The notes under the pieces are model-generated. The model had not been told where the DNA came from, did not search any database, and saw only the letters and a program-made list of their open reading frames with translations. This document shows, in pieces, positions 30,651 through 61,000 of a DNA stretch of 64,000 nucleotides. The position numbers were made by a program, and so were the translations under genes. Positions within the stretch are counted from its first letter, which is position 1. Every line of letters begins with the position of its first letter. Source of the DNA: Macrocystis pyrifera (Eukaryota > Sar > Phaeophyceae > Laminariales > Laminariaceae); NCBI GenBank assembly GCA_031763025.1, contig JASSKH010000042.1, positions 558,001 to 622,000 of the forward strand, read 5' to 3'.

Positions 30651-33600
30651 ATGAGAGTCCGGTTGGCGATCCTGCAGGCAGCGTTTGGGGCAAGTGCTAG
30701 GACCGCGCGCTACTTCTCAGCTGGTTTATCTGGAACAGCCATGGCGCTTAGCGATGCTCGCGAGACCATGCAAGTCAAGAAGCTATCCAGCAATGCTATC
30801 ATGCCTGTGAAAGGCTCCGAACACGCGGCAGGATTCGACCTCGCGAGGTACGAGTCCAAAGTATGTTGATGTGCTCCTCTGTTGCTGTCTAAAAGTGAGT
30901 TTTTTCGTTGTGGTGGCACTACTCATTACTGCTGCTGTACACTGCTGTGCTGCTGCTGTGCAAGTACAGGTATAATACTCGTAAGTCAGTTGTTTTTGAA
31001 TTTTTTATTGTTTTTTCAAGTTTTTGGCGCGAACGTACCGTCTGGCTCCCGGCTTCGGTTCTGTTCTTTCCGTTTATATCTTCGCCCTTCTGTTATCTTT
31101 CCATCGAAATTCAGATCCGGGGGTCACATGCATAGCAGGCTTTTCTCCTCCCCCCTCCCCACTACGGTTCTTGCCTTGGAAGGCATTTTTATCGCTAGAG
31201 AGAAGACTTCAGCCATTTCTCCCCTCGTCGACTCGCGTCGACTCGTGCCTACCCTCGCTACACACTCTCAGCAGTTGCACAATACCTGGTGATAATTACA
31301 CCTCGGATAACGTAACACTCGGATAACACTTATCTACGTTATGGGGCCTAACACAGGAACGTGGTAACGTACTAACATAGTGTTAGCACTAGAGGAGCGA
31401 TCACGGTAACGCAGTAACACAGTGTTAACTGGAAACCCACGAACGTGCACGAGCCTTAACGTTATGTTGTTGCTCGGTCTCGTCCAGCTCTGGTACAGTA
31501 ACATTATGTTACGCCGTGGTCAGTCCTTGAACTAACACCGTAACACAGTGTTAGGCTTTGACCAAACACGTACGTTATCGCTCTAACATTCCCAGATCGA
31601 TATCCGCATGTTTACCAACACGATAACATAATGTTAGTGTCGACGCAGCGTTAGACGTAACACAATAACATTATGTTACCCTTAGGAGGAGTGTTATACA
31701 CAACACCCTAACATAACGTTACCATGTTCGCCCGCACTACTAACACATGACATTGTGTTACAGATAACACACTAACGTAACATAACGCAATGACCAGCAC
31801 TACTAACACTACGTTATCTGGACCCCCCATCTGATTGCCTTAGGGTCGGATAACGTAACACTTAACGTTAGATACGTTACAGTCTTAGCCGGCCCATGCG
31901 TAACATTATGTTAGGATGTTAGCCTAAATGCGGAAGTCCCTGTAACATTATGTTACGGTGTTACCGTCAGTAAAGATCTGATGGTAACATTCCGTTACTG
32001 TGTTACCATAAAAACCAATCCGGGTCTAACTTTACGATACTGAGTTACCGTTGGGGCCGAAGTCGTTCTAACGTAATGTTACTACATTACCCTTTGGATC
32101 TTCCCGAGATCTAACATGTGTTACCTGTGTTAGTGGTAAAGCGGGCGTGTGGGAGCAACATAGCGTAGCCGTGTTATCCAATTTCGCCGACATCCCAGTA
32201 GGGGATACCTACAAAAATATCCCCGGGGGGGAGGATAGCATAGCATCCCTGGTAAAAAAACGCCTCCATATTTAAAAAACCCAAAACAGGGGATATTTAT
32301 GAGGGATCCCCGCAAAAAAACGCCTCATTTGTTTTTGAGGAAACCCCGCCAGTACGTTATCCATCTATAACACATTACGTTATCCATCTATAACGTAATC
32401 TGCACACTCGCACGTACGAGTTAATACGGCAGTAACATATTGTTGAGTTTAGATTGGGGGTGTACGTTATCTACTAACTTGTGTCACTACATACATTGCA
32501 TACGAGTTGACAGCATTAACATAATGTTATTAATAGTGTTTTATCGATCATATACATACGTTATCCGTTTGACGTATGTTATGTTGTTATGGTAGCAAGA
32601 CTTCCGTAATATCCTCACATAACGTCACTCGAAACGGACTGCTGCTGCGGCTGATACAGTAACATAATGTTAACGTTGTATTGACCATGCACGTCATCTC
32701 TCTAACGTCTGTTACGATAGCCCCTAGGAATTTCACTAACACACTAACATAGTGTTATGTACGCGTTTATTTGGCCGTGTACGTTATCCGTCGAAAGGGT
32801 GTTAGGGTAGCACGAAGAATCCCGCTGACACACTAACATAACGTTACTCGCTACGGGCTGATGCCGCTAACACGGTAACATAATGTTAACGTTTAAGTGA
32901 CCATGTACGTTATCCCTTTAACGTGTGTTACGGTAACCACCAGGAATTCCGCTAACACGCTAACATAGTGTTACTCGCTATGGGCTGCATACCCTAACAC
33001 CGTAACACATATACTGCGGTCAGTACGAGATCAAGGTAACACTCTAACATAATGCTACGCGATCGCCCGCCAATATCGTAACACACTAACACTATGTTAT
33101 CACAAAATCCAGAAAGGAGTTAACACAGTAACGTAATGTTACGTGTTTTTTCCGCTGACGCCTAACATTAACATAAAACGTTAAGTGTTACGTTATCCTA
33201 GGTGTGGATAATTTGAAGCAACAATCCGAGTGAACAAACCGAGTGAGGATTGCGCAATCCTCCTCTACAATTATCGTGGATGAGGGTTGGGGTGTAGGTG
33301 GGGATCGCGAACGAACATAAACGGACCGCTGCTGAAGGTGTACACCTCCTATTAATAGTACGCGCGAGCAGGACATGAAGCAGTTTGCAACCCTCGTATT
33401 AAACGCCCCCACAAAGTCACGAAATATTTGAAAAAATCGATCGGACCGATGGTTCGTACGGAAGGCATCCAGACTAGAAATGAGCACTGGATTAGAAAAA
33501 ACGGTTAACCGCGGTTTTTGAAAACCCGGCAGGTGTTTGCAAATATTCGGTTTTCTAAATATGTATGTGACCGCTTTTTTATTACCTTTTTGCCTTCCGA

Positions 33601-36600
33601 TAATGTATAGTACGTGTTCCATTCCGACTTGAATCGAATATCTTCTAATACCGCAGTAGTATTAATAGTAGTACCTCTTTTGGCACTCTGATGCAACAGA
33701 TATCCCGCTTTCCCTTGAAGGGACGCTGGCGCCCTCAGGAATGCATCAAGTTCCCGCGCAGGCGCTTTGGTAGCATATACATCCGACTTGAATTAGAGTA
33801 CGGGATTGCAACCATGTTCCGTACTTCGTAGTTGTAGAATAGTTGATGCAAAATTACAAGAATCCTGAGCTTTAAACCCTTTTTTGCCCGTTTTCGGGCC
33901 CAAGAAATTACTACCCGTCACGGTAACGAAGTTTCTCCTCCCGCCCCCATCTTCGACGACGACTCTCTACGAGATATAACATCCGCCTGGAGAACAGCAA
34001 CATTATAGTGAAGGCCACTCCTTCATCCGTGATGTAGCAATTGTGCTATGCTCCCTTGCGTAAAATTAAACTTTTTAGCGTTTTTGCGAGTTTTTTTGTG
34101 CTACTCGCTCGCAACTTCGAGTACACGAAAACACCTCGTGAGTCGCTTCTGGGTGCGTACGACCGCCGTCTGGCGCACCCGATACCCTCACACATCCCAC
34201 CAAGAGCATCCCTCAATTTCGCGGGCTGTAGTATCCTGTGAGGAGCTGTAGCTGTCCGTCCGCAAGTGAGGTGCAAACGTTCAGTTGGGGGTTGGTTGTC
34301 TCATCTTGTGCACCCCAAATTTCGACCAATTTCGACCACTGCAGCACCTCTAAGTCGAGATGTAGGCCTCTTTTGAGAACGGGCGGGAGATCAATCTCGA
34401 GAGAAACACAAGCTGCTGTGATGAACCTCTTTCAAGTCACCGTCGCTCTCCGGTAAGCACGAACCAGCCGTAGCTGTAAACGCAGCGTGTTAAACTAGCG
34501 ATATGTTTTTTCTGTTCCGATAAAACATCTAGATATTAGAGTACCCGGAAACCCGGGAAGTAGGGGACGCTTGGGTGCCAGCGTCCCCTTAAGGGATCCT
34601 ACTTGGGCCTTCCTCACTTGGCAAACCCTCGTTTACCCTATGCAAACTCCTCGTCAACGTTCCACTCCCGTCATTGACAGCAGTGCTTCAGTTTCTTCCG
34701 TCCTTGCCCTTGCCGGGTTTTTATTCTACTCCATTTTTGTTTTAGGGCACCCACATCTACACTAAAACGAGCCTGCAGCAATGAACAACGTTATCACGAA
34801 CACGATAGCGTGAAATTTGGGCATGCAAGGTATCCAAAAGAACCAGACACGCACTTGGGAGTACGCGATACGGTGCAAATCGAGGATCAGTAAAGTCACT
34901 CGTGGTTTCCAAAGTTTTTTAGAATAACGCCTCTCGAAGCGTAAGAATTGACCGAATTCTTACGCAGACGGATACATGGATAAAAAAAGCCGGTTTCCGA
35001 TAGACAAAATCAGGCCTTTTTCAATACTGTTGGAATATATTAATTTCGATCGAGCAATCCGATCCACGCATCCCGTCGAAAAACTCGGGGGTATTTCGAC
35101 GGGGTGCCCAATAGACTACACCCCCATTTTGATTGGTCTACATCTCTACCTTGATCCCACCCGGACCTGATCCCATTTGACACCCTTCTCCCACTTGGTG
35201 ATGCAGAAATATCATTAGCCCGGAGCCGCCGGAGGCCGTGAGCGCGAAGCGCGAACCGTAATAGCGCGCGGACTGCACTCAAGTGCTGCAGTCCATGTAT
35301 TGGTAATAGTGCTCAATTTGGGGAGTTTGTCCAGATCGACGTGGCATGTCCCATGAAAGCGAAGCAAGCCACGCCACTTATGTATGAGCTATGAATTCAA
35401 CCCTTTTGTTCAAGGTGTAGCCCATAGCACGCAACCTTGAGCCGTGTCGTCGACTGCTTCAGAGGCGAGATCCATCATTCCCGACCCCCAGGACCATGGA
35501 GCAGCCACAGCACGAGGTCCAACGGCCCCTAGCACAGAGTAGGCCACCCGCGACGCCTGAAAAAAAATCAAGGCCATCGCAAAGCCAGTTTTTCATCCCT
35601 CTTTACTCCCCACACCACACGAGCACCGACCAGGTCACGACTTCGTTCAGAAGTTCGACTGCTGTGTGGGGCTTTGGTGCTGCACGAGCCACGCAAGGCA
35701 TCCCAAGAGCGATACGCAGCCTCCTATAGCCGGTGCCGGCAAAAAAACTCTGCCGCTGGTCGCGGCGCTCCGGGGAGGACGTGTGCCCTCGCTTGCCTCG
35801 CTGGTTGCCCACATGTGTTCGTTGACCCTGTCGCGCTAGTCGAATTTTAGAGCACAATACGCCATTCCTCGATTGAACACAAACTGGAAATTCTCACGAA
35901 ATTCGATTCAAACACGATTCATGAGGGGTTTTCTGCCGTCGACGCCAAATGAGGGGAGGACCCCGGTTCGACTCGACATCTACTGCACTTTCCCTGGGTT
36001 CTTAGAAGGTAGTGTAGGATAGACACGCCAGGTTGTGGTATAGGATCGGTACGGAAGATCCCACAAAACAATCATCAACGATGATGGAGAGGAGAGAGTG
36101 TGTGCGAGGCTCGGGCCTCGCATTCCTATCTGCAGTGTTTACTTGCCACGGGATATTGAACAATCAAGGAATATGGGTGACAACAGTCGTACAAGAAGAT
36201 ACGGATATCCACGACTAGGCGAATGGTGGGACCTACGCAGGACAATATCCGTGCGATGGTTGGGTTCAGAACCTGGAACCCACATTCGTACTATTACGGG
36301 GGGCCATAGTAGATAGGACCAAATGTTGGTGAAAATAGGTAAATATATAGGTTTTTGTGTGTACCGTAGGTCCTAGTTACTATGGTCCCCCGTAATATTC
36401 AACTAAGAAAGTTTATATTCCTTGTTAATGCGGGCCTTTTCACCTCTCAAAACCTGATGCATCTCTATTTCTATATCTATACTTGGTACCTTGTGTAGGA
36501 GAGCATCTCTTGTATCGGATAACTGATATTTGATCAATCTCTCTCGTACCGGCAGAAATAGCTTCTATTCAGTATATGACTATAAAAAGAGCGAGAATGA

Positions 36601-39600
36601 CATCTTTTGTTGGGGGTGGCATTTGGCCGCGGTACAGGAGGTTCAAGTGCAAATACGTGACGCGTTTCTATGTTGTGTTGTAGTGTCTCTGCGATAACAT
36701 TGTTCCATTGACGTTTTTGTCATGTTGACCCCACAGCAGCTGTACCAGTACAGTAGCACCGTTGCACAACCACGCGCGCAGCAGTAGGCGCCCATAACAC
36801 AAACACGATCAAAACTGTTCTTCGACCTGCTGTACGATCAACTTACGTCGCCATCGTTCTGTGATGACGTATGTATGTGCTGCTGTGTCGTGAGAGAGAC
36901 TGAGAGGACCACCAAAGAAGGGTTTCCTTTTAAAGCTCGCTCGATTGAAGAGATGTGGTCATCACAGGCCACTGAAATGCTCTCAATCCGTTCGTCCTAA
37001 ACCTCTCTTTCAGGGCTGGCGGGTGTGTCAGGCCATTTGACCCTCTCTTGTATCCTGACGTGTCTTATCTCAGGATCTCTTATGTTTGTGCACCCAATTC
37101 TGTAGCCTTTTTCATCGCTGTTCATTTAGGTTCGAAATGTGCAAATTACCTAGCCTGAAATTCTAGGTCCGACGAGCAAGCGGCGAAAAAAAAAAAACAC
37201 AGATGATAATACTCGTACCTGGTATACGTCGCGGGAAACGGTAATTCAAAAGATTGCTGGAGCTGGCGGTGAGTAACTGGTCATAGCATTTCTTGCGATA
37301 CGCAAATAGGCGTAGCGTCCCCTCTTCAGAAACGCCTTCATGATATGTTGGAAATCCTACCAGGTACTGTGGTGGAAATCGAGTTTATAAGCCTTAAATT
37401 CATGTAGCGTTTGTTACGTAACATTTTTCGTCTACATTTCCCTACAATGGCGTCGTCGGCAGGACGTGAGATTATGAAGAGCGAGGTCCGTGGTTCGATT
37501 CTCGCCTTCATCCCCCGAAAAAAAGGGGAAAAGGGGAATATCTCATGTTCAAGAACCTGTAAAACTCACTCACTTAGAAAACACCCAGGAAGGAACGATG
37601 AGAGCAATGCGATCATTGCATACTGAGTCCGGTACCGAAAAGTCGGAGGTAAAACTTGGAATAAGCCTTAAATTCATGTAGCGTTTGTTACGTAACATTT
37701 TTAGTCTACATTTCCCTACAGTATCAGATACTGAAAACCACGGACCAGTGGTTATTATAGGCAAGTCTAAAATAACACGGAGCAGTTGACGCCAGCTGTC
37801 TTCCTATCAAATCGCTGAAATAACGCGAACGACACAAGCCATGTTCCAATCAAATCGCTGTATTAATGCGAACCACGCGAAATCACGCCGCACACAAACA
37901 AAAAGAAGACAGATACAGCTCGCAGCTCGCACACCCGCAGTGACCTTCGATCTCGACACAGAATCAACCCACGGTCAATGAGCTTCGAACCGGGCAAGGC
38001 CAATGAGTGTAAATGATGGCCTCGAAGGTATCATGGCAGTCCGTGGTCTAGGGAGAGAGAGGTTGGCCACGGCGTCCTACGCTCTTTGATTAAATTTTCA
38101 AAAAGTTCTGTTTTATGCACATTGCGCGGCGCGGAATTAAAGTCCGCTCAAGCTGTCCCGTGACGTAGAAAATTTGCCGTGGTTATTCCGTTGCGGCAAC
38201 AGCGGTAACTAAAGCAAATGTGCGATTTTCTGGTGTTAACGGAGACCTTCGTCTCAAGCTTGGGGCAACATGTATCCTTGAAAAACCTGGCGCAAAAGTC
38301 GGCGGCTGATGTATACACTTCATTACCTGGTAAAACCCATTTTCGATTACTAACTACAGAGGTATCGTGTGCCTTTGATGTGCGTGCGTGCGTGCGACTT
38401 TTTTGTTTGCTCAGTGCCTACGAGGCTACTGTCCCCGCCGGACGCCAAGCTCTTATCAAGACGGATCTCTCCATCGCCATCCCTCCAAACACCTACGCGC
38501 GAATCGCCCCCCGATCCGGACTGGCAGTGAAGAAGATGATCGATGTCGGGGCGGGAGTCGTGGACTACGACTATCGTGGCCCTGTCGGAGTGGTGTTGTT
38601 CAACCACGGAAGCGAAGACTTCAAGGTCAACAAGGGAGACCGAGTAGCGCAGCTAATCTTGGAGCGCATCTGCATGGCGGATATCGAGGAGGTAAACCAC
38701 ATTTCCTGCATTCCGATTGTTGAGGCCACGGAGGATCTTACTCGCCCCTCCCATCGCCGGGGTTTCCAGGTGGCTATTAATCTCTAGACATTTTTTCGGT
38801 GCAGCCAATCTCGCCGCTATCTTGACACGCTGCTTTTGGGCCGTTCGTGCCTTAGCAGAGAGAGGGTGTATCAGCTTAATGTTCATCTACTCTTAATTAC
38901 CTCCAGATTGGTTATCTGCGATCCTGAACAGAGGCCTACACGTCGATTTTGGGTGCTGCAGTGGTCAAAAACCGGAAGACACAGAATGAGACAACGAAAC
39001 AACCCCAAGCTGAACGTTTGCATTTGACTTGCGGACAGACGCAGCTCCTCACAACCAACCACAGCCCCCGAAATTGAGGCATGCTCCTTACGGGGGTGTG
39101 TGTGAGGGCGTCGAGTGTGCCAGGCAGAAGTCGTAGGCAGCCAGAAATGAGTCACGAGGGTTTTTCGTGAGCTCGGAAGTTGCGAGCCAGCAGTACGAAA
39201 GACTCGCAGAATCACTAAATATTTTGTTTCACGCGCGGGAGCCTCTTGCTATTTTTGTAGTACGATAGTACGATGGCTACATCACCGATGAATAAACGGC
39301 TTTCACCAAACTTTGCTGGTCTCCTGGCGGATAATTTGAAGTACAGTACCAGGTAGTAACCTGGCGTTCCCATGAGAGGTTGTAAGTTATTGGGCCCCAA
39401 AAAGGGCTGAAAAGCTTTAAATTCACTGGGTTTGCAGCAGTTTTCAGAAATTTAGAAAACGGGTTTTTTTTCCAACTATTATTACCTTTGCTCTATTCCC
39501 AAGGCGTTTGTATTATTTGACGAAACGCGTACGTGCGACTACTCGACATCATATTACTGAGAGATCCGCCGCGGCCTAACCGAATCGCGCCCTGCTTCTG

Positions 39601-58799: not shown

Positions 58800-61000
58800 G
58801 CCTTGCCCCCCTATCGCCCCTGCCGTTCCGCGCACGTGCATTGGCGTCAACTGTGGTAGTCGCGATTGCAGCCATCCTGTGCCGTTCTACCGATGCCTCC
58901 TCCTCATCCTGATGCCATTTCCGCATGAAGACCTCCGCCCCTTCCTCGACCCGTCGGAACCATCTACCGGCTTTCTGTGCTGCCTCGCGCCACCCTTCGA
59001 GCTTTTATGGCAAACTCCTTGAGGTCCTCCTCAAGGTACCTCATCCAGTCCCACTCCTGTCCTCCGGAGTAGCGCTTACCCCCGACCATCTCCCCAAACA
59101 TCACCCTCTTCGGCAGACGCTCCTCTCCCATGCCTGCCACAAAGCCCGCAAACAATAGTCTACGCCTGCGTACCGTCGTATCAACGCTCTTGAAGTTTGT
59201 TCTGAGAAGCGCGTTGGCATAAGATAGAATATAGTCTTCGCACGTTCGTTTTCGCCAGCCGAGGCATCGGAGGAGCATCTTGTGGTGGACCTCCTGTAGC
59301 CTGACGTAATCAGTCTTCCTCGGGCTCCAAGTAACGCATCCGTAGAGCAACGTTTCGATCACCTCGGCTCTCAGCATCCGCACCTTCAGGCACAGGCGCA
59401 CACCCGGGCGGTCATAGATTTCAATCTTATACCGCCCGAAGCACGCCCATTGCCTGTAGAGTCGACGTGTTACTTCGACACTTCTGCTCGTCCAATCTGC
59501 GCTGATAGCCCCGCCCAAATACACAAAACTCGAATTGTTGTTTGTACACTCGGCCGGCTGTGGTGACGGTGAACGGCACGTTCCCCCCATCTTTCGTTTG
59601 CAGACACATTATTTCTGTCTTGGCCTCCGAGACCGTCAGGCCGCACGCGGCACATGCAGTCACGATCACCGTCATCATCCTCTCCAGGCCGTTTGGTGAT
59701 CGTGAAACAATGCCCGCATCGCCAGCATACAGCATTGCCCACAATGTCTGGACTTATTTATCCTTCCCCTGTCCGTCGGCGTGTCCAGCCCGTGCAGTTC
59801 CCCCATTCTGTTTCCCCTTCTCCTTTCATTAAGTTGCACCATGCTGTCCGTGATGGCTTCATCAGCGGTGAAGCGTTTCTCCGCCACGCGCAGCACCGCT
59901 GTGAAAAACATGTTGAACAGCAATGGCGCGAGCACACACCCTTGCGGAAGACCCTGCTCCACGTCGAACATATCTGAGCACTCGCCATCATCCAGCCGCA
60001 CGCATGCTCGCATGCCGTCGTGGAATTGGTGGATATCGGTGAGCATTCTAGGTGGCACGCCAAAGCGAGCCAAGCAGTCCACAGGAGGCTTCGGTCGACG
60101 GAGTCATAGGCTTTGGTGAGGTCGACAAAGCACATGAACAGCGAAATGTCCTTCTTCCTTGCCAATTCCTGCAATCGTCGCACCACGAACATCATGTCGA
60201 CCGTCGAACGTTCGGGCCTAAAGCCACACTGCTCCTCTGGCAGGATGCCTTCCCGTTCGCAATAGTCGCTGAGGCGGCGCGCGATGGCTTTGAGGGGTAC
60301 TTTGCCGGCATGCGCGACAAGGGATATGCCACGATAGTTACCACACTCCGTTCTGTCTTTCTTCTTGTGCAACACCTTAATCGTTGCATTCTTCCTTTGC
60401 TGCGGCACGACCCCTCCCCTCCACACAGCGACGATAATCTCGTAGAAGCTTACTTAGGTGTCTGGGTCTCCTTCGTCGGCCAGGACCTCCAGCAGTTCAG
60501 CTGGGACACCATCAAGCCCAACCGCCTTGCGGTTCGCCATCGCCCGGATCGCGTCTACCACCTCGTACTTGGACGGGACGTCATCCAGCGGACTGCACGA
60601 GGGCCATACCTTGAACTCGTCGACGATAGTCGGGTCGAGGGTCAATGACGTGATGTTCAGTAGCTTATGGAACTACCTTACCCATCGTTGCCGGATGAGG
60701 CCGATGTCCCGCAGTAATGTACCTTCTTCGTCCCTGATGTACTGCGACTTGAAAGTCCTTTTCCCTTCCACATCCATCCCCTTAAGGTGCTTGTAGAACC
60801 CAAACTGATCGCCTTCTTGGATACGCCTTTCGAGTTGACTGACGTATTCTTCGAAGAACTTCTGCACTCCGTCCGTCCTCGCACGTGTGAGCTTTTTCGT
60901 GGCAACCTTCAGAGCTTTCCGCAGTTTTTTGTCGTTCGGGTTAGCACGTAGTTGCGTCCTCGCATCTTCCCTTCCCTGTCATCGCGAGTGAACCTCTGCT
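58800..61000 (-). pseudogene. LINE reverse transcriptase ORF remnant
   Basis: Coding core of the LINE. Segments by frame: 61000-60100, 60082-59675, 59744-59427, 59590-58964, with the C-terminal tail (FRRVEEGAEVFMRKWHQDEE) running to about 58800. At least three nonsense codons and three frame changes, plus loss of the first catalytic Asp of the YADD box (YAGD at about 59730), make it non-functional. The TAG near 60670 replaces the Trp expected in a WFHKLLN-type motif. Confidence 0.85.

Follow-up and report, generated by a model that had tools for sequence, protein, structure and literature searches.

The 64-kb window, the whole stretch of Macrocystis pyrifera DNA that was analysed, carries a dUTPase gene whose reading frame is continuous once both exons are joined across a 7,567-bp intron. 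The relatives of the downstream exon in the PDB are dUTPases (best 6.8e-37). A transposable element lies within this intron, at window positions 31298-33205 (Table 1). An earlier sequence-only reading had placed the element inside the dUTPase gene; that placement holds for the gene, and the GT..AG borders together with the frame assign the element to an intron, not to coding sequence. The element fully contains none of the listed ORFs of at least 100 aa. Compared with Rfam at gathering thresholds, the window matches no family, a result relevant to RNA readings only. Elsewhere in the window, a reverse transcriptase fragment is found on the minus strand at 59758-60426 (Pfam RVT_1, 1.2e-12).

Table 1. 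Features of the element and of the gene that houses it, in window coordinates
Feature	Position	Strand	Basis or remark
dUTPase coding exon, end (...GFDLA)	30831..30847	+	donor GT at 30848; joined to 38415, reads in frame
dUTPase intron, 7,567 bp, houses the element	30848..38414	+	GT..AG borders and frame
Left target duplication TGATAATT, border of the sequence-only reading	31290..31297		31297 is the site of the TIR terminal C in other copies
Left terminal inverted repeat (TIR)	31298..31319	+	21/22 complementary to right TIR; genome-wide pattern matches
Left array, TAAC-8-TAAC-9-GTTA, 42-bp register in blocks	31365..31816	+	perfect at 31365, 31407, 31533, 31658
Internal copy of right-end sequence	31848..31869	+	22/22 complementary to 33177-33198; site polarity flips after it
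Middle array, inverted sites TAAC-9-GTTA-8-GTTA	31901..32132	-	42-bp register 31901-32069
Left duplication CCAGTA of apparent nested element	32195..32200
Apparent nested 148-bp MITE-like element (GGGGATACC...GGAAACCCCG)	32201..32348		half-site desert; GGGG...CCCC-type ends
Right duplication CCAGTA of apparent nested element	32349..32354
TIR-like single motifs TACGTTATCC	32353..32915	-	at 32353, 32376, 32557, 32780, 32906
Palindromes 32433 (one mismatch) and 32517	32433..32529	+	in register with middle array
Right array, TAAC-8-TAAC-9-GTTA with phase steps	32660..33141	+	perfect at 32737, 32868, 32953, 33079, 33121
Right TIR	33184..33205	-	by family comparison, extends one base outward to G at 33206
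Right target duplication GGATAATT, border of the sequence-only reading	33206..33213
dUTPase downstream exon	38415..38787	+	38787 is the open-frame stop; Pfam dUTPase 1.8e-31 in ORF 38218-38787

The element is a non-autonomous TIR (cut-and-paste) DNA transposon with an 8-bp target duplication. Its ends were searched for in the 537,376,219-base M. pyrifera assembly (223 contigs), where the 22-bp TIR pattern with at most two mismatches has 1,397 matches (679 + 718) and a reversed-pattern control has none. The same ends thus recur through the genome; the sequence-only reading had named the lack of any other copy as its refutation, and that outcome did not arise. Scoring covered 40 of 1,545 candidates, and among the 50 matches listed 30 are near full-length copies. 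The 30 include the copy in the window, and identity is 93-96% for the remaining 29. A majority sequence was built from 28 of these 30, each of which diverges from it by 1.5-3.9%. Comparison of copies gives a family TIR of 23 bp (CACACCTCGGATAACGTAACACT), one terminal base longer than the 22 bp of the window copy, and places the true ends one base outward family-wide (CACACCTCGG...CCGAGGTGTG). In the window copy, a T replaces the left terminal C. Its flanks, TGATAATT and GGATAATT, agree at 7/8 positions by the borders first proposed and at 3/8 by the family border (7/7 for GATAATT), and this copy is a weak example of the 8-bp target duplication.

The duplication is established by the family. 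Flanks were read at 48 loci, of which 46 gave 47 two-ended elements and two lacked a paired end. The 8-bp duplication is perfect in 20/47 elements and matches at 7/8 positions or better in 31/47, as do 37/2,162 mismatched flank pairs, a control inflated by copies that share flanks. When shared-flank copies are counted once, the figures become 18/40 perfect and 25/40 at 7/8 or better, against 13/1,560 in the control. The target consensus is approximately nAAnnTTn, AT-rich and nearly palindromic. Matching TIRs, a duplication of fixed length and dispersed transposase-free copies together place the family among the TIR DNA transposons, as had been proposed from the window copy.

Some copies have multiplied along with their surroundings. 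Seven (L126, L128, L131, L132, L133, L137 and L140, on contigs C126, C127, C129 and C138) have common flanks: five match on both sides over about 250-300 bp, and L126 and L140 have one flank plus the same target sequence in common with the others. Four of the seven lie within 0.16 Mb on contig C126. Judged by their flanking sequence, all seven are one insertion copied within a larger repeat. A second pair duplicated along with its flanks is found on contig C189 (L103 and L105, at 14.01 and 13.96 Mb). Both are full copies whose left TIR adjoins a partial copy ending at 562, inside its internal TIR-like motif, and their right flanks are 99% identical, which indicates that the arrangement itself was duplicated.

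The interior of the element is an array of palindromes, as the sequence-only reading had described. TAAC-N5-GTTA occurs 20 times in the element, against a mean of 0.19 and a maximum of 2 in 500 dinucleotide shuffles of it, and all 20 occurrences in the 64-kb window fall inside the element. The exact palindrome noted earlier, TAACANNNTGTTA, is present 14 times inside and nowhere else in the window. Half-sites number 64 TAAC and 51 GTTA, compared with shuffle means of 19.4 and 15.6. Since the majority sequence contains more of them (70 and 54), the founder element was tidier than the window copy. The basic site spans 21 bp and consists of three half-sites, TAAC-N4-TAAC-N5-GTTA (that is, TAAC-8-TAAC-9-GTTA) or its reverse. 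Perfect sites number nine direct and three inverted in the window copy, 12 and five in the majority, and none in the rest of the window. Alignment of 25 units on their palindromes gives a 21-bp site, TAACAC-NN-TAACATNATGTTA; the roughly 21 bp after it carry little or no information. The repeated motif is probably a protein-binding site. Sites of host MYB proteins were considered and rejected: the animal MYB core is TAACNG, which TAACA or TAACG followed by other bases does not fit.

The array had been called loosely regular, which is wrong: the spacing is rigid within blocks and forms a 42-bp lattice with breaks. Half-site pairs of the same type at exactly 42 bp number 42 in the window copy, whereas 2,000 gap shuffles average 5.25 and never exceed 15; lags of 84, 126 and 168 are also raised. 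The majority has 48 pairs at 42 bp, and in 500 shuffles no lag between 20 and 129 collects more than 17. Once the nested insert described below is removed, 15 of the 25 intervals between 26 palindromes (up to one mismatch allowed) are exact multiples of 42 bp, and 19 are within 1 bp of one; the phase is broken by steps of 39, 56, 97, 143 and 89 bp. A pitch of 42 bp is four helical turns of 10.5 bp each, two turns of predicted contacts and two of gap. The spacers had been described as mostly unique, and they are. Between units, identity is 72.5% in site columns (composition predicts 29.5%) and 29.5% in spacers (25% expected), a spacer figure that also takes in portions of adjacent sites and a recent duplication of 117 bp. 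Spacer-only similarity is slightly raised at lags 42 and 126 (0.304 and 0.306, against a mean of 0.249 and sd of 0.018), possibly as a trace of a tandem-duplication origin of the lattice or through unmasked degenerate half-sites.

The orientation of the sites changes along the element. Both outer arms carry them as TAAC-8-TAAC-9-GTTA on the plus strand, and the block at 31901-32132 is inverted. The TIR contains two TAAC half-sites, and the TIR and the internal copy of the right end have the TAAC core in common with the array. About 150 bp in the middle of the element looks like a separate nested element. Deletion of its 148 bp plus one CCAGTA (154 bp) shortens the interval between the flanking palindromes from 364 to 210 bp, or 5 x 42. 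When removal lengths from 100 to 199 are tried in turn, the best are 196, 154 and 112 (counts 20, 16 and 12), which are equal modulo 42, with a next best count of 6; the highest count falls at 196, and the length of 154 is fixed independently by the CCAGTA duplication. The founder probably carried the insert already, since the 28-copy majority has it. A second short palindromic MITE-like sequence, of GGGGGTCCATAGTTAA...GGACC type, recurs by eye inside L131, L126, L201 and L196.

Conservation was compared between half-sites and spacers at two depths. In the 28 recent copies, half-sites have changed at 0.0215 and spacers at 0.0190 substitutions per site per copy. Spacers thus change about as fast as half-sites. 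Equal change in recent copies is as expected of dead copies and says nothing for function. Older relatives are mixed, with constraint on sites visible in some and absent in others. In L189, 75% identical by BLAST, identity is 0.892 in half-sites and 0.837 in spacers (Fisher p 0.004), a value reached by 0/112 shifted masks. L190 gives 0.862 and 0.700 over only 443 columns (p 0.0004; 1/112 shifted masks), and half-sites are also better kept in L139 (2/112). The excess is absent from L142 (25/112), three pieces of L143 (10, 24 and 101/112), L191 (30/112) and L192 (24/112). A first tally of ten loci had shown it only in L161, which is part of L189, and slightly in L139. A supposed 1.6-kb subfamily (L131, L132, L133, L137 and L140, with L126 and L128) was discarded, since its common flanks make it one insertion copied; the selection test discarded with it had given 23/406 changes in half-sites and 70/1,092 in spacers. 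The strongest argument for past constraint is the conservation of sites at exact spacing, set against nearly randomised spacers.

An autonomous partner was sought among the relatives of the element. Of the array elements examined, none has a recognised transposase gene; most were judged by ORF length or by eye, and only three ORFs of all loci were run through Pfam. The elements include 20 TIR-bounded or TIR-started elements of other lengths. The 5.8-kb L126 was rejected as a partner because it holds a nested LINE (RVT_1 1.5e-34, Exo_endo_phos 2.9e-7) and not a transposase; the LINE frame, at L126:771-4517, is open over 1,249 aa with endonuclease and reverse transcriptase. From the first 100 TIRs listed, 43 without a listed partner were picked by eye and the interiors of 40 were probed (of the other three, one had already been read as L139 and one was read as L194). 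The probes match the family at least in part in 29/40 cases and do not in 11/40. Four of the 11 were extended, with no transposase recognised: L186 and L191 are array elements carrying foreign inserts, and in L187 and L188 unrelated sequence lies next to 0.2-0.5 kb of array. TIRs with altered subterminal bases gave 56 matches, and all eight that were read match the family majority in part. L190 (C189:1434350-1437600) is a divergent relative whose TIR is perfect but whose array has a different arrangement and is broken by another repeat; by eye, L190 leads into an apparent LTR-retrotransposon pol region. The lineage of L190 may lead to the autonomous partner. At L147 (C125:3379520-3380020), a coding-like G+C-rich stretch without a family match lies about 1 kb inside an unpaired TIR. 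Outside the kelp, the TIR 15-mer has 33 matches and the two-unit pattern 58 in viral contigs, and a stricter two-unit pattern has 6 in genome contigs; none of these 97 loci of the viral and bacterial collections exceeds 20 half-sites per kb, compared with 58 in the element.

The superfamily of the element is most likely hAT or KDZ. The hAT dimerisation domain has 150 scored matches in the giant kelp genome, and some of them lie within long open frames, the longest of 629 aa. The 3′ flanks (2.1-2.3 kb) of 20 of these 150 contain no array and no TIR within five mismatches. A sequence common to three of the flanks, AATACCTCGGTA, lies by eye inside the shared hAT 3′ region and was dropped as chance. 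The KDZ profile PF18758 has no match in the genome, and control genomes are equally silent. Among hAT features, the 8-bp duplication is present; the terminus consensus of hAT elements is 5′-YARNG, which the CACAC... ends do not fit. Among KDZ features, the element has the 8-bp duplication and TIRs of Zisupton. The CA..TG ends of Kyakuja are also present, but the 8-bp duplication and the 23-bp TIRs set the element apart from that group.

These observations are probably best explained by a non-autonomous transposon whose 1.9-kb body is a helically phased array of candidate binding sites for a transposase, or a partner protein, acting in trans. One protein would read both the ends and the body, which is probable because the TIR contains two TAAC half-sites. 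With a 42-bp pitch, all sites in a block would look out from the same side of the helix, where an oligomeric transposase could load cooperatively across the element. Cooperative loading may raise specificity, bring the ends together and out-compete other substrates, and individual copies would decay neutrally afterwards. The element would then be a cis-acting substrate of an extreme kind, used by an oligomeric transposase that comes from elsewhere in trans. The transposase-binding scaffold named in the sequence-only reading is favoured among its suggestions, as the TIR itself contains the TAAC half-sites of the array; the binding is a prediction. A bolder form of this explanation is possible, and we hold it only tentatively. 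The whole cis-acting body would be a nucleoprotein lattice, on which transposase forms an ordered filament or ring stack; over the 1.9 kb, every four turns would hold one unit, trimeric or higher. Spacing and sites would have been preserved by selection and the spacers left to drift until nearly random, giving a super-substrate that titrates and captures the transposase of an autonomous relative and tolerates nested insertions if register is kept on each side.

The regularity of the lattice could also be inherited and functionless, left over from a tandem repeat that transposon ends once captured and that has since decayed. Such an origin agrees with the faint similarity that spacers retain at lags 42 and 126, and it is also suggested by half-sites that are no better kept than spacers in the recent copies and several older relatives. 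Neutral decay would erode sites and spacers alike, yet between units the former are 72.5% and the latter 29.5% identical. In an array with spacers so close to random, insertions and deletions should also often break the register, yet 15/25 intervals are exact multiples of 42. The decayed repeat is therefore an unlikely explanation of the array. A palindromic site in a lattice of helical pitch would equally suit a host polymerising or architectural protein, and no transposase is tied to the array in the elements sampled. Iteron and EBNA1-type repeat arrays offer an analogy: the array might bind a chromatin, silencing or replication factor, or another non-transposase protein, and be carried for retention, insulation or copying. 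The ends of the TIR have the TAAC core of the array, however, which links it to the transposition machinery and makes a host-protein array rather improbable.

Two other suggestions of the sequence-only reading fare worse. The many short palindromes recall a foldback-type element with arms that pair into a large hairpin, and there are weak imperfect inverted matches (31942-32010 with 33074-33142, and 31901-31965 with 33035-33099). The TIRs are only 23 bp, though, and the site triplets of both outer arms run in the same direction on the plus strand; the longest inverted arms are 65-69 nt at 71-72%, explicable by shared sites. Long arms are thus lacking, and a foldback structure is very improbable. 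A satellite in formation does not describe discrete, dispersed copies with target duplications, and units whose spacers are 29.5% identical are not the near-identical head-to-tail monomers of a satellite.

Subterminal transposase sites are known, but to our knowledge they are usually few, near the ends and irregular. CACTA/Spm elements carry arrays of short sites for the accessory protein TNPA near both ends, and their deletion derivatives are mobilised in trans. The kelp element is like them in its short sites near both ends and in the proposed mobilisation in trans. CACTA/Spm elements differ in their 3-bp duplications, in motifs that lie within a few hundred bases and in spacing that is not fixed.

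Among hAT elements, which make 8-bp target duplications as the kelp element does (PMC12730594, in part), the left end of Hermes offers a likeness in its short subterminal motifs, a palindromic pair and a third repeat in fixed phase. According to the partial text of the Hermes study, two BED domains cooperate in binding the subterminal palindrome and another BED domain, the third, occupies a nearby repeat; the exact phase is important, as a shift of one base relative to the TIR severely impairs cleavage (PMC10368747). In the same text, the Hermes motifs crowd the tips: each end has five within its first 55 bp, the numbering at the left end runs to at least 15, and no more than two pairs form palindromes (PMC10368747). 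The kelp element differs in having 12 perfect three-part sites (17 in the majority) on a 42-bp pitch through 1.9 kb. Zisupton elements of the KDZ group resemble the kelp element in their 8-bp duplications and TIRs, and Kyakuja in its CA..TG ends, but Kyakuja has 7-bp duplications and no TIRs (PMC12730594, in part). No phased array is among the features given for KDZ in the portions consulted of the two sources (PMC12730594; PMC12477816). In the brown alga Ectocarpus, KDZ elements make up 1.8% of the genome, and the excerpted transposable element survey gives four hAT families with 128 in a column taken as copies (PMC12477816).

Galileo, a Foldback-like element of the P superfamily, has several binding sites for its THAP transposase inside long ends, as in the reading proposed for the kelp element, and higher-order multimers have been proposed for it (PMC3688188, in part). 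The part of that source consulted shows three binding sites in a 1.2-kb TIR with four long direct repeats, against TIRs of 23 bp in the kelp element, and a 42-bp lattice is not among the features it describes (PMC3688188). Among the papers listed by searches of the open-access literature, where subscription papers are mostly not included, none has a title or abstract that describes such a lattice or this kelp family. A high-copy kelp transposon family is described here that the partial texts of the related literature do not mention. A 42-bp lattice that stays in register over long blocks, and that can be traced from one side of a nested insertion to the other, would serve as a natural ruler of the packing of an oligomeric transposase on DNA, and it makes models of helical phasing testable by sequence alone as well as by simple EMSA or footprinting. 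By analogy, the kelp element appears to resemble the palindrome-plus-one site of Hermes and the long TIR of Galileo, but it is longer and more regular. By this evidence, it is a new family whose lattice is a variant of the known transposase-binding subterminal arrays.
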